A DNA stretch of 64,000 bases, from positions 1 to 64,000 of the forward strand of contig JAEPQH010000008.1 in NCBI GenBank assembly GCA_017640605.1. Reading direction: 5' to 3'. The notes under the pieces were generated by a model that was not told the origin of the DNA, ran no database searches, and was given only the letters and a program-made list of their open reading frames with translations. Source of the stretch: Balneolaceae bacterium (lineage in GTDB: Bacteria; Bacteroidota; Rhodothermia; Balneolales; Balneolaceae). The position numbers were made by a program, and so were the translations under genes. Positions 45,925 through 49,937 of the stretch are shown piece by piece (positions within the stretch are counted from its first letter, which is position 1; each line of letters begins with the position of its first letter).

Positions 45925-46887
45925 ATGCGTACCAAGATCGACATATATACAATAAAGATCAGACAACAAAGAGAAAAAGATAGCTATTTTCCTTTAGACG
46001 ATATAAATGGAGATCATTTTATAGATTTATTTTCGGAGTTTGAGACATGGTTAGAACAGAACCCTCAAAACCTTAATAACTACAATAAACTTTTAAAATA
46101 TCGGGATCCAGAAGATTCTGAACGATTGCTAGTTCAAGAAGACAATGGAAACATCAGACTATTTCACGGAACCTTTAGGTCGGGTGATTTTGGTTATTCT
46201 TCAAATTTAGACGATATAAATACTGGAGTTCGTTTGCATGTCCAGACTCCAGATCAGGCAAGTACATACCCTTTATTTGCTTCCGTATATATAAACTCTG
46301 GATATCACACTGGTTTGATAGGTCTTCAGATTGACGGTCGCTTCTCAATGAAAACACAATTAGAATTAGCTTTTAGAGAATTTTTACGAGCTAATTATGA
46401 AGGATTATATATAGAATTCAATACGTATTTACCAAGTGAAGCTATTGATGAATTAATTGAAGATAGTATAGCTTCCGAATTTACATTTATTAAATATAAT
46501 GCAGATAGAGATGCTTTTAATAATATTGGTGGGCTCCAACCAGAATCAATTAAAGCAAAACTATCATTAAAGGTTGAAGGATTTAACGAAGGTTCTCTTA
46601 ATCCATTCAGGAATAATTTGAAGAATGCTATACGTGACAGAAATAGTCGATACATTGAGATAAGCACAGGTGGTGATGTATTTGATTATGATGACTTAAA
46701 CATTAAGATTAAGCGAAATGGCTTAGAAAAAACTTTAACATTAGGTAGGTTAGAAAGAATTCGAGGAAGTATTGATATTACCGACGAAGTAGAAAGAAAT
46801 CTAGAAACGAATAACACTATATTCGATAGCTTTAGAAGAGTTTCACAGAGAGAATTAATGGAAATAGGAGAAACAATTGTTGATTAG
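45925..46887 (+). CDS. Unrecognised 320-residue soluble protein, first gene of AT-rich pair
   Basis: No family recognised. The N-terminus MRTKIDIYTIKIRQQREKDS leads into a FPLDDINGDHFIDLFSEFETWL segment. The middle (about 105-180) alternates beta strands and helices, with YPLFASVYINSGYHTGLIGLQ and QLELAFREFLRANYEGLYIEFNTYL. The C-terminal part is rich in charged residues. No signal peptide, TM or obvious catalytic motif. The base composition is clearly more AT-rich than dnaE before it and umuC after it, which suggests acquisition by transfer. It lies 8 bases before a four-TM protein gene and is very likely co-transcribed with it. A soluble-plus-membrane pair like this recalls two-gene phage defence modules (for example the sizes of KwaB and KwaA), but this is not supported by any motif I can name. 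Confidence 0.6.
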   Translation: MRTKIDIYTIKIRQQREKDSYFPLDDINGDHFIDLFSEFETWLEQNPQNLNNYNKLLKYRDPEDSERLLVQEDNGNIRLFHGTFRSGDFGYSSNLDDINTGVRLHVQTPDQASTYPLFASVYINSGYHTGLIGLQIDGRFSMKTQLELAFREFLRANYEGLYIEFNTYLPSEAIDELIEDSIASEFTFIKYNADRDAFNNIGGLQPESIKAKLSLKVEGFNEGSLNPFRNNLKNAIRDRNSRYIEISTGGDVFDYDDLNIKIKRNGLEKTLTLGRLERIRGSIDITDEVERNLETNNTIFDSFRRVSQRELMEIGETIVD

Positions 46888-46895
46888 GATTTAGC

Positions 46896-47474
46896 ATGTC
46901 TAATAAAATTAACGTTACAAACATCATTCGCGCTCACCTTAAAACATTGTATAATAATAAATTATATAAAACAGACGATGATGTAAAAAAACTTGATAAA
47001 CATGATGTTTTTTGGTTCTATGTTTTCCCTCTTCTCTTGGTTGTTTTATTCATTTTCATTGATCTGAATCATAAACTGATTACTAACTCAATCTCTATTT
47101 CATTATCAATATTTATCGGACTGCTACTTAATTTGTTAGTGTTAATTAGTACACAGTTGAAGAAAGAAACTAAAGCTTCTCTAAAAAAAGTTAATCCTGA
47201 TTTAACAAATAGAGATTTAGAATTCAGACTTAAAAAAAATGTATTAATTCAAGAGTTATATAATAATATATCTTACTCGATAATTATCTCTGTAGTTAGT
47301 TTAGTCATCGTCTTTCTAGGAATAATTTTAAAAGGTATTTGTATACCCTACTTTGGTATTGACGCTTCACATATTCCAAATTTTATTGCCTATTATCTTT
47401 ACATAAACTTACTCTTAACTTTGTTTATGATTCTTAAAAGAACCTATTTAATACTCGAATCGGAGTTTAGTTAG
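46896..47474 (+). CDS. Unrecognised four-TM membrane protein, second gene of AT-rich pair
   Basis: 192 residues. Four hydrophobic segments are visible at about 33-55 (VFWFYVFPLLLVVLFIFI), 63-86 (ISLSIFIGLLLNLLVLI), 121-148 (ISYSIIISVVSLVIVFLGIIL) and 157-187 (NFIAYYLYINLLLTLFMIL). A basic cytoplasmic-looking loop lies between TM2 and TM3 (KKETKASLKKVNPDLTNRDLEFRLKKN). No signal peptide or known family. The gene begins 8 bases after the preceding gene and shares its AT-rich composition. It ends about 70 bases before umuD. Confidence 0.6.
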   Translation: MSNKINVTNIIRAHLKTLYNNKLYKTDDDVKKLDKHDVFWFYVFPLLLVVLFIFIDLNHKLITNSISISLSIFIGLLLNLLVLISTQLKKETKASLKKVNPDLTNRDLEFRLKKNVLIQELYNNISYSIIISVVSLVIVFLGIILKGICIPYFGIDASHIPNFIAYYLYINLLLTLFMILKRTYLILESEFS

Positions 47475-47503
47475 GAACAGTAAGGCAGTTTTTTTACATT
47501 GCG

Positions 47504-47540
47504 CACACATATTTTATACATATATTATGTGTGGAGGAAA
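47504..47540 (+). promoter_or_regulatory. Palindromic operator-like site and ribosome binding site before umuD
   Basis: CACACATA (47504-47511) and TATGTGTG (47526-47533) are perfect 8-base inverted arms with a 14-base AT-rich centre containing TATAC/ATATATT -10-like sequence. It overlaps the expected promoter and directly precedes the Shine-Dalgarno GGAGG (47533-47537), which fixes the umuD start at 47545. An SOS (LexA) operator is the natural guess for a umuDC promoter, but the LexA box of this lineage is not known to me. Confidence 0.5.
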
Positions 47541-47544
47541 AATT

Positions 47545-47976
47545 ATGAGCAACTGGACATCCTATCAGGTTCAAAAAGACCGGGAGGACAATGATTTACT
47601 ACAGCTTTCAAGGCGAATTGAAACCGGATTTCCGTCGCCGGCGGGTGATCATCTCGAACGCGCGTTGAATTTGGAAGAGCTGATTGTTCGTCGGCCAACT
47701 TCTACTTTTTATGTTCGGGTGGAAGGTGATGCGATGAAGGCCTCAGGCATTCATGATAAAGATATTCTGGTAGTTGATAGATCGCTGAATGCCACCAATG
47801 GATCCATTCTTGTGGTTACGATTGACGATGAGGTGCTCATCCGCAGATTAATCAAACAAGGTGATCGTCGATTCCTGGTTACGGATGATGCTTCAATGCC
47901 GCCCATCCCTGTGGAGCACAACACCCAATGGATGATTTGGGGAGTGGTTACGTATTTAATTCACAAGTTTAGTTAG
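47545..47976 (+). CDS. umuD: UmuD homologue with both catalytic dyad residues replaced
   Basis: 143 residues from the ATG at 47545, chosen because GGAGG sits 7 bases upstream; an earlier in-frame ATG at 47527 has no such site. It aligns with UmuD throughout: GFPSPAGDHLERALNLEELIVRRP, then VEGDAMKASGIHDKDILVVDRS and the C-terminal WGVVTYLIHK. The nucleophile of GDSM is alanine (A63, codon GCG at 47731-47733). The general-base lysine is arginine (R100, codon CGC at 47842-47844). The spacing of 37 equals Ser60-Lys97 of E. coli. The arm before the usual cleavage site is retained, with T27-G28 where Cys-Gly or Ala-Gly is usual. It should bind UmuC but not self-cleave. Confidence 0.85.
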   Translation: MSNWTSYQVQKDREDNDLLQLSRRIETGFPSPAGDHLERALNLEELIVRRPTSTFYVRVEGDAMKASGIHDKDILVVDRSLNATNGSILVVTIDDEVLIRRLIKQGDRRFLVTDDASMPPIPVEHNTQWMIWGVVTYLIHKFS

Positions 47977-48021: not shown

Positions 48022-48444
48022 ATGAGTATGAAAACTGAGATAAAAAGGAAGAAATTGAACAAAAGTGCTATCACCATATTTTCAGATTTTGGAATTAAAA
48101 CGTTTAGGGATTTGAAAGTTTGGCAAAAAGCGATGACACTTGTTAATAAAGTTCATGATGCTACTAACTATTTCCCAGATTCTGATCAAAACCCATTGAG
48201 TAATCAACTAAAAGCAAGTTGTATTGCAATCCCATCGTTAATTGCAGAGGGATTTCGATTGAAGGAAAATGATGAATTTGCAGAGTTTCTAAACCAAGCA
48301 ATAGGACATTTATATGCGGTTCAAACTCAAATAGAGATTGCGGTAAATCTTGAATACATGAAAAGAGAGTGGTTTAATGTGTTGTATGAAGATTGCCGTG
48401 AACTTGAACGCCTACTCTCCAACATGATTTTCAAACTTGAGTAA
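48022..48444 (+). CDS. Four-helix-bundle protein (S23 / 23S rRNA intervening-sequence family)
   Basis: 140 residues. After a basic N-terminal extension, the core is typical S23: FRDLKVWQKAMTLVNKVHDATNYFPDSD, LSNQLKASCIAIPSLIAEGF, EFAEFLNQAIGHLYAVQTQIEIA and a last helix with ECRELERLLSNMI-like sequence. The family includes proteins encoded in 23S rRNA intervening sequences and the Avd accessory protein of diversity-generating retroelements. No reverse transcriptase is nearby, so no such element is claimed. It separates umuD from umuC, which are normally adjacent, and is flanked by octamer arrays in opposite orientation. Confidence 0.88.
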   Translation: MSMKTEIKRKKLNKSAITIFSDFGIKTFRDLKVWQKAMTLVNKVHDATNYFPDSDQNPLSNQLKASCIAIPSLIAEGFRLKENDEFAEFLNQAIGHLYAVQTQIEIAVNLEYMKREWFNVLYEDCRELERLLSNMIFKLE

Positions 48445-48547: not shown

Positions 48548-48611
48548 TAACTCTGTAACTCTGTAACTCTGTAACTCTGTAACTCTGTAACTCTGTAACT
48601 CTGTAACTTTG
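48548..48611 (+). repeat. 8-bp tandem array (TAACTCTG)n directly before umuC
   Basis: Seven perfect copies of TAACTCTG occupy 48548-48603, followed by one imperfect copy (TAACTTTG). Each frame meets a TAA within three units, so the array cannot be translated. It lies 42 bases before the preferred umuC ATG, in the position of a promoter or leader. Copy number could change by replication slippage. Confidence 0.9.
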
Positions 48612-48653: not shown

Positions 48654-49937
48654 ATGATCGACTGCAATAATTTTTATGCGTCGTGCGAGCGAGTGTTTGA
48701 TCCTCGGTTGATTGGAAAGCCCATTGCAATTTTATCGAATAACGATGGCTGCGTGATTGCCCGATCGGAGGAAGCCAAGGAAGCCGGAATCGAAATGGGA
48801 GCGCCGGAATTCAAGTATCGAACTCAGTTTAAAGAACAAGGCGTGGTTATTCGGTCTTCGAATTATGCATTGTATGGAGATATGAGTCATCGAGTGATGG
48901 AAACGCTGCGATACCTAACGCATGATATCGAAGTGTATAGTATTGATGAAGCCTTTGCTGAATTATCAACCAATATCTTTCCGAATCTGACGGATTATGG
49001 AAATCTGATTCGAGAGACTATTTTTAAGTGGACTGGTCTGCCGGTTTCGGTAGGAATTGCATCCACGAAAACATTGGCGAAGGTTGCTAATCACATCGCA
49101 AAAAAGAATCCCGAATATAATGGCGTGTTTGATTTTACAGCTGCTCCAAATAAAGATGAGTTGCTAGAATCATTTCCGGTAAGTAAGATCTGGGGAATTG
49201 GTCATGGTTTAACCATTCGACTTAATCGATTTGGCATTCAAAACGCCAACCAGTTGAAACAATCCATCAGCAATAAAAAATGGGTGCGCAAGCAAATGGC
49301 GGTTACCGGTTTGAGAACCGTGCTTGAATTAAACGGAAAGCCTTGTTCGGGATTGAGCGTTGGTCGGGATTCAAGAAAAGGCATTTTGTCTTCTCGCATG
49401 TTTGGTAAGCCATTGTATGACCTTGAGAGTATTCAGGAAGCACTTTCTACTTTTACCACCCGAGCAACTGAAAAACTACGGGCTCAGAATTCGGTGGCTT
49501 CATGTATCCAAATTCAACTCATCGGCGATAAATATGACAATATTCGCGGTAAGTATAAATTCAGTGCGTATTCACCACTTCTAGTGCCCACAGCACATAC
49601 TCCTACCATGATTCAAATCGCTAAAAAACTGGCCGAGAAAGTTTTTGAACCTGGACGTAAATACAAGAAAGCCTCGGTAATGTTAACGGGCATCATCCCA
49701 CAAACTGAAGTACAGATGGATTTATTCGACCCAGAGTTATACACCCAAAAACAGCACCAATTGATGGAATGCGTGGATAAAATCAATGCAAAATTTGGAA
49801 GAAATCACGCCGCATTTGCTGCTACGGGATTGCATAAAGAAGGAGATCACCGGAATAAATGGTTGATGAATCAGAATTATCTGAGCAAACGCTATACAAC
49901 CCGATGGGATGAACTTATGGTGGTAAAAGCGCAATAA
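48654..49937 (+). CDS. umuC: Y-family DNA polymerase V catalytic subunit UmuC
   Basis: 427 residues from the ATG at 48654, where the family N-terminus MIDCNNFYASCERVF begins; the frame continues upstream to a TTG at 48611 region without family similarity. Catalytic residues are intact: the first Asp in MIDCNNFY, and Asp-Glu in YSIDEAFAEL near residue 100. The helix-hairpin-helix segment (KIWGIGHGLTIRLNRFGI) and the little finger domain follow. QMDLF near residue 355 matches the beta-clamp binding motif. No Shine-Dalgarno is visible. It performs error-prone translesion synthesis with a UmuD partner, here unusual. Confidence 0.94.
   Translation: MIDCNNFYASCERVFDPRLIGKPIAILSNNDGCVIARSEEAKEAGIEMGAPEFKYRTQFKEQGVVIRSSNYALYGDMSHRVMETLRYLTHDIEVYSIDEAFAELSTNIFPNLTDYGNLIRETIFKWTGLPVSVGIASTKTLAKVANHIAKKNPEYNGVFDFTAAPNKDELLESFPVSKIWGIGHGLTIRLNRFGIQNANQLKQSISNKKWVRKQMAVTGLRTVLELNGKPCSGLSVGRDSRKGILSSRMFGKPLYDLESIQEALSTFTTRATEKLRAQNSVASCIQIQLIGDKYDNIRGKYKFSAYSPLLVPTAHTPTMIQIAKKLAEKVFEPGRKYKKASVMLTGIIPQTEVQMDLFDPELYTQKQHQLMECVDKINAKFGRNHAAFAATGLHKEGDHRNKWLMNQNYLSKRYTTRWDELMVVKAQ

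Follow-up and report, generated by a model that had tools for sequence, protein, structure and literature searches.

The window, a stretch of Balneolaceae DNA of 64,000 nucleotides, carries a umuD gene whose product is, judged from its sequence, non-cleavable. This form of UmuD is conserved throughout the family, and its Pol V operon is normal in other respects. In the textbook scheme, cleavage of UmuD, driven by RecA, is the gate by which error-prone Pol V is delayed after DNA damage. According to the alignments, catalytic dyad, scissile bond and arm anchor are lost together as a family-wide trait in Balneolaceae. No earlier description of a dyad-less or pseudoprotease UmuD was found in the literature searched, subscription papers not being covered.

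The umuD homologue of the window and its operon

The locus comprises the following features:
47503..47522, + strand: LexA box GCACACATATTTTATACATA upstream of umuD, with 2 mismatches to the published Balneolaeota motif TTACACATATTTTWTACATA (PMC7739468)
47545..47976, + strand: umuD homologue without Ser-Lys dyad, 143 aa (family profiles, alignment, AlphaFold, fold match)
47545..47625, + strand: uncleaved N-terminal arm, 27 residues, without the Pro-Leu-Phe/Tyr anchor (arm comparison; AlphaFold pLDDT 31–41 over residues 1–30)
47602..47607, + strand: Gln20-Leu21 at the place of the E. coli arm-anchor residues Leu17-Phe18 (alignment)
47623..47628, + strand: Thr27-Gly28 (ACC GGA) at the former cleavage junction (alignment, codons)
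47731..47733, + strand: Ala63 (GCG) replacing catalytic Ser60 (alignment to E. coli UmuD)
47842..47844, + strand: Arg100 (CGC) replacing catalytic Lys97 (alignment to E. coli UmuD)
48022..48444, + strand: four-helix-bundle gene (23S_rRNA_IVP, PF05635) between umuD and umuC (family profile; shared with G001 and G034)
48548..48608, + strand: 8-bp tandem repeat TAACTCTG, 7.6 copies, between the four-helix-bundle gene and umuC
48654..49937, + strand: umuC, 427 aa, with its catalytic and interaction motifs preserved (profile matches, motif alignment)

The UmuD of the window scores 95 bits against Pfam S24 and 129 bits against the NCBIfam pol V autoproteolytic subunit, and its top fold match is E. 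coli UmuD' (1AY9, TM-score 0.90 on the target), so that its alignment to E. coli UmuD is unambiguous. It has the S24 (LexA-like) fold with UmuD-specific similarity and lacks both hallmarks of autocleaving S24 peptidases, with Ala63 and Arg100 in place of the Ser-Lys dyad and with neither an Ala-Gly (Cys-Gly) scissile bond nor a docked arm. Ala63 and Arg100 are 37 residues apart, as are Ser60 and Lys97 of E. coli UmuD. The GFPSPA segment beside the junction is kept. The original prediction, made from the letters of the window alone, had named both replacements and their spacing as well as a retained N-terminal arm with a Thr-Gly junction, and all of this was confirmed at the level of codons. 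A whole-genome search with the S24 family found two S24 proteins in the genome of the window, this UmuD and one LexA with intact Ser and Lys; a second UmuD, which the original prediction had also considered, was not found in this search.

The UmuC of the window keeps the equivalents of Asp6, Asp101 and Glu102, and also has a clamp-binding motif (QMDLF), a RecA-NT-like stretch and a UmuD-binding C-terminal tail; the RecA-NT motif and the tail have been described for UmuC (PMC6511836, PMC11791011). Its catalytic residues were invariant in all 38 Balneolaceae UmuCs examined. The description of umuD as lying beside an intact umuC is correct as regards the motifs, but not as regards direct adjacency, since the PF05635 gene and the 8-bp repeat intervene. 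This gene was also seen between umuD and umuC in G001 and G034 (L004, L005) and was absent from the other relatives checked, and therefore appears to have entered the umuDC operon recently, by insertion. UmuD of the window's family is genomically linked to and co-occurs with UmuC, the two genes being neighbours in 34 of the 38 genomes with both; the exceptions belong to genus g7. There, umuD is broken by stop codons in G008, G074 and G068 (L085, L086, L087), in which umuC is broken or absent too, and the genes are no longer adjacent in intact members. A UmuD-UmuC complex carrying out translesion synthesis is predicted, the kept C-terminal tail of UmuC being indirect evidence. Upstream of umuD, two proteins are encoded at 45925–46887 (320 aa) and 46896–47474 (192 aa); neither gave a Pfam match, and the 192-aa product is apparently membrane-bound.

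LexA of Balneolaeota binds TTACACATATTTTWTACATA, as determined by motif discovery and EMSA, and Pol V belongs to the LexA/SOS regulon of this group (PMC7739468). The predicted box of the window stands 22 bases upstream of the umuD start codon, and the window holds two matches to the motif at ≤3 mismatches, compared to 0.03 expected by chance. The other Balneolaceae umuD genes outside genus g7 have a LexA box at 1–6 mismatches, which nearly always beats the best of 20 shuffles; a recognisable box was not found upstream of umuD in genus g7. Because the box is present both at umuD of the window and at the family's umuD genes outside g7, the transcriptional tier of Pol V control appears to be kept, and umuD of the window is predicted to be expressed under LexA control from its match to the published motif.

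Loss of dyad, junction and anchor across Balneolaceae

The survey covered 92 Balneolaceae genomes, about half of which are without any umuDC, and yielded 40 intact umuD genes. Ser and Lys occur together in none of the 40 products: Lys97 is lost in every one, and Ser60 is kept in three. Positions 60 and 97 are Ala/Arg in 22 of them, spread over six genera including that of the window, Gly/Arg in four (genus g7) and Glu/Arg in one. The 13 genes of genera g19 and g20 encode Ser, Asp, Glu, Gly or Asn at position 60 with Cys at 97. Named carriers of a dyad-less UmuD include Balneola sp. EhC07 and several Balneolaceae MAGs. The best homologues outside Balneolaceae, taken from one public genome collection with search patterns that contained neither Ser nor Lys of the dyad, are Ser/Lys in 77 of 77 cases; family f4 of the same order has Ser/Lys with Ala-Gly.

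Since all intact UmuDs of the family, but none of the 77 homologues sampled elsewhere (one collection), have lost the dyad, chance or sequencing error falls far short of explaining the loss. The clade-wide conservation that the original prediction had proposed to test was thus found, with 22 Ala/Arg proteins among the 40, and close relatives with Ser and Lys at the two codons, which would have spoken against it, were absent from this set. A base error at both codons or a pseudogene confined to one genome was rejected, as the loss recurs in 40 genomes and dN/dS argues against it.

Two genomes, G090 and G099 (L083, L084), have umuD without umuC. Their UmuDs carry DYPAP in place of GFPSP, which is otherwise invariant in intact Balneolaceae UmuDs, apart from GFVSP in genus g4. 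As a natural control, these two suggest that the GFPSP segment is kept for UmuC. Their umuD adjoins a hydroxyacid dehydrogenase gene of a kind that is also present in the window. Both were left out of the arm statistics, which are based on 38 family UmuDs.

In E. coli UmuD, the arm docks on the globular domain, where Leu17 and Phe18 hold it (PMC5342242). Hydrophobic residues occupy both of these positions in 66 of 72 Ser/Lys UmuDs, but in only 1 of 38 Balneolaceae UmuDs; for Pro16, the corresponding counts are 65 of 72 and 1 of 38 (Fisher p < 1e-20 for these contrasts, though related sequences are not independent). The residue before the junction Gly is Ala in 71 of 72 Ser/Lys UmuDs, Cys in E. 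coli and Thr in all 38 Balneolaceae proteins, 37 of which have Glu before this Thr. The arm is 27 residues long in almost all of the Ala/Arg group. Given this narrow length and the near-invariant Glu-Thr, the arm may have some function and not simply hang free. In AlphaFold models of monomers, built from alignments of 41 rows, pLDDT is above 90 for the globular domains and 31–41 for the arm of the window UmuD, compared to 62, 61 and 46 for the arm of a Ser/Lys control with an equally deep alignment; the lower value is weak support for an undocked arm. An internal start giving UmuD' directly was rejected because no in-frame start codon is found near the junction in the window; Met at position −3 of the junction occurs in some g17 and g18 relatives only.

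The dN/dS comparison proposed with the original prediction gave median pairwise values within Balneolaceae of 0.19 for umuD (0.15 for its core and 0.38 for the arm) and 0.036 for umuC. Between the window and its nearest relative, umuD differs by a dN of 0.037 and a dS of 1.2, which corresponds to a dN/dS of 0.03. Relative to UmuC, the UmuD core changes at a rate of 1.2 in Balneolaceae versus 0.8 among Ser/Lys pairs, i.e. about 1.5 times faster. Constraint on the core thus appears to be partly relaxed but clearly not absent, and the protein is kept. The earlier suggestion of selection for a non-cleaving form is supported by the clade-wide pattern and a dN/dS of about 0.2, whereas the faster core qualifies its assumption of a fold that is otherwise simply conserved.

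In the UmuC tree, Balneolaceae form one clade (SH-aLRT 100), which fits a single ancestral loss of the dyad followed by vertical descent. In trees based on UmuD only, Balneolaceae fall on one side of a branch in one case (SH-aLRT 75) and are split in another.

Dyad-less UmuDs in other Bacteroidota and in phages

Dyad-less UmuDs were also found in the Bacteroidota families f24, f21, f7, f17 and f51. Those of family f24 (L242, L244, L247, L249; four genera) form a second coherent group with Ala/Arg and Thr-Gly and without anchor; their junction reads ANAT-GFGAAADDY, and three of the four genomes have umuC next to umuD. A Ser/Arg form occurs in family f15. In G399 of family f41 (L280, 1741–2723), one UmuD is Ala/Arg and has a normal, docked-type arm (Leu-Pro-Leu-Tyr) and an Ala-Gly junction. 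It lies next to another S24 copy, which is Ser/Lys and shows no clear cleavage junction, and the two may be a catalytic/non-catalytic UmuD pair. The UmuDs of f51, f15 and f41 retain an anchor-like arm and Ala-Gly.

By parsimony, six changes are needed for the dyad-less state, both on the UmuD tree and on the UmuC tree, and a repeated origin across families is likely. We do not claim convergence because AU tests do not reject fewer origins, be it Balneolaceae grouped with f24 (p 0.77, 0.73) or with f7 (p 0.84), or all dyad-less rows as a clade (p 0.10). Altered dyads without a normal arm were also observed in UmuD-like proteins of phages, Tyr/Arg in Hafnia phage yong1 (L222) and Thr/Lys in phage N15 (L221).

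Control of Pol V and comparison with known systems

The E. coli variant UmuD 3A (T14A L17A F18A), in which the arm is freed, is full-length, non-cleavable and a UmuD' mimic (PMC5342242). We consider it fairly probable that the UmuD of the window is a naturally evolved, UmuD-3A-like subunit of a Pol V without UmuD proteolysis as a switch. An undocked arm would leave the full-length protein permanently UmuD'-like, as in the engineered variant. It would bind UmuC once LexA no longer represses the operon, and activation of the complex by RecA would still take place via the RecA-NT-like motif of UmuC. Pol V would then be controlled by self-cleavage of LexA and, presumably, by RecA handover, and would lack the delay that results from UmuD cleavage in E. 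coli. That uncleaved UmuD supports lesion bypass together with UmuC is inferred here from the loss of the anchor, because full-length UmuD carrying only the S60A exchange is a brake in E. coli (PMC3901139). The original prediction had left three options for Pol V, of which activation without cleavage is the one favoured by this reasoning; a locked enzyme is disfavoured, as the anchor residues are lost too, and another UmuD acting in trans is unavailable in this genome.

Broader and clearly more tentative is the proposal that UmuD proteolysis has been replaced in this lineage, with dyad, scissile bond and anchor lost together and the uncleaved arm now a fixed working part of the polymerase. The same package (Ala/Arg, Thr-Gly, no Leu-Pro-Leu-Phe anchor) is seen in at least one further Bacteroidota family, where it may have arisen independently. 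Selection on UmuD and UmuC in a whole family without the cleavage gate would mean that the gate is dispensable, and would provide a natural test of what cleavage adds in terms of timing, restraint of mutagenesis and checkpoint function. Balneolaceae UmuDs may also let an uncleaved Pol V complex be studied or solved.

A permanent brake and cleavage in trans both fit less well than the UmuD-3A-like reading. As the brake form of UmuD is thought to depend on a docked arm, the observed pattern resembles that expected of a cleavage-free, UmuD'-like state and is unlike the need of a locked brake: the docking residues are lost along with the dyad, a loss of anchor that yields a UmuD' mimic in E. coli, and a pure brake would not need the UmuC catalytic residues that are invariant in 38 of 38 proteins. 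It is therefore rather unlikely that uncleavable UmuD holds UmuC in a checkpoint (non-mutagenic) form, slowing replication after damage with little translesion synthesis, although the arm is retained at near-constant length and, in E. coli, UmuD S60A with UmuC lowers UV mutagenesis and full-length UmuD prevents mutagenesis (PMC3901139). Removal of the arm after damage by another S24 peptidase or an unrelated protease, resulting in UmuD', has a precedent in E. coli UmuD S60A, which is cut in trans within a heterodimer with active UmuD (PMC5342242), and the paired copies of G399 from another family would suit such a scheme. We regard it as improbable for Balneolaceae, where the junction is Thr-Gly throughout the 38 proteins and the docking part of the arm is gone; the genome of the window yielded no S24 protein besides this UmuD and LexA, and an internally started UmuD' is also unlikely for want of a start codon near the junction.

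The retained arm could instead have a new switch role through contact with DNA, RecA or UmuC, another signal replacing proteolysis. Its constant length and the fixed Glu-Thr before GFPSPA are in favour of such a role, as is the position of the UmuD' arm end near the UmuC active site and DNA in a published Pol V model (PMC11791011). However, the distal arm is poorly conserved between genera (dN/dS of 0.38 versus 0.15 for the core) and is without confident structure in the AlphaFold model, which leaves this explanation unlikely, though not far-fetched. Relaxed decay, with the protease lost by drift and umuD on its way out, would account for the faster UmuD core relative to UmuC (1.2 versus 0.8), for the absence of umuDC from about half of the genomes and for genus g7, where umuD lies apart from umuC, is without a recognisable LexA box and is broken in three genomes. 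For the clade of the window it is disfavoured and improbable, given dN/dS values well below 1 (0.03 against the closest relative), Ala/Arg fixed across six genera, a strictly kept UmuC alongside and Thr and Glu fixed at the junction.

The Balneolaceae protein shares its fold (TM-score 0.90 to 1AY9), GFPSPA, the operon with umuC and LexA control with E. coli UmuD/UmuD', the S24 peptidase and Pol V subunit, but differs in the missing Ser-Lys dyad, in Thr-Gly for Cys-Gly and in the missing Leu17-Phe18 anchor. Like engineered UmuD 3A, it is full-length, non-cleavable and unanchored in its arm as far as can be deduced from sequence; UmuD 3A, however, is a laboratory mutant with the arm alone altered, whereas Balneolaceae have lost the dyad too, naturally and across the family. 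Phage P1 HumD, a UmuD-like protein, likewise occurs naturally and does not depend on UmuD cleavage (its record annotation states that it complements UmuD'). HumD is armless and keeps Ser and Lys in the alignment, while the UmuD of the window has a 27-residue arm and no dyad, and scores 74 bits against HumD, below the cut-off of 120. Acinetobacter UmuDAb also departs from the E. coli UmuD scheme, but, unlike Balneolaceae UmuD, acts as a repressor that cleaves itself and has a DNA-binding domain (PMC8565304).
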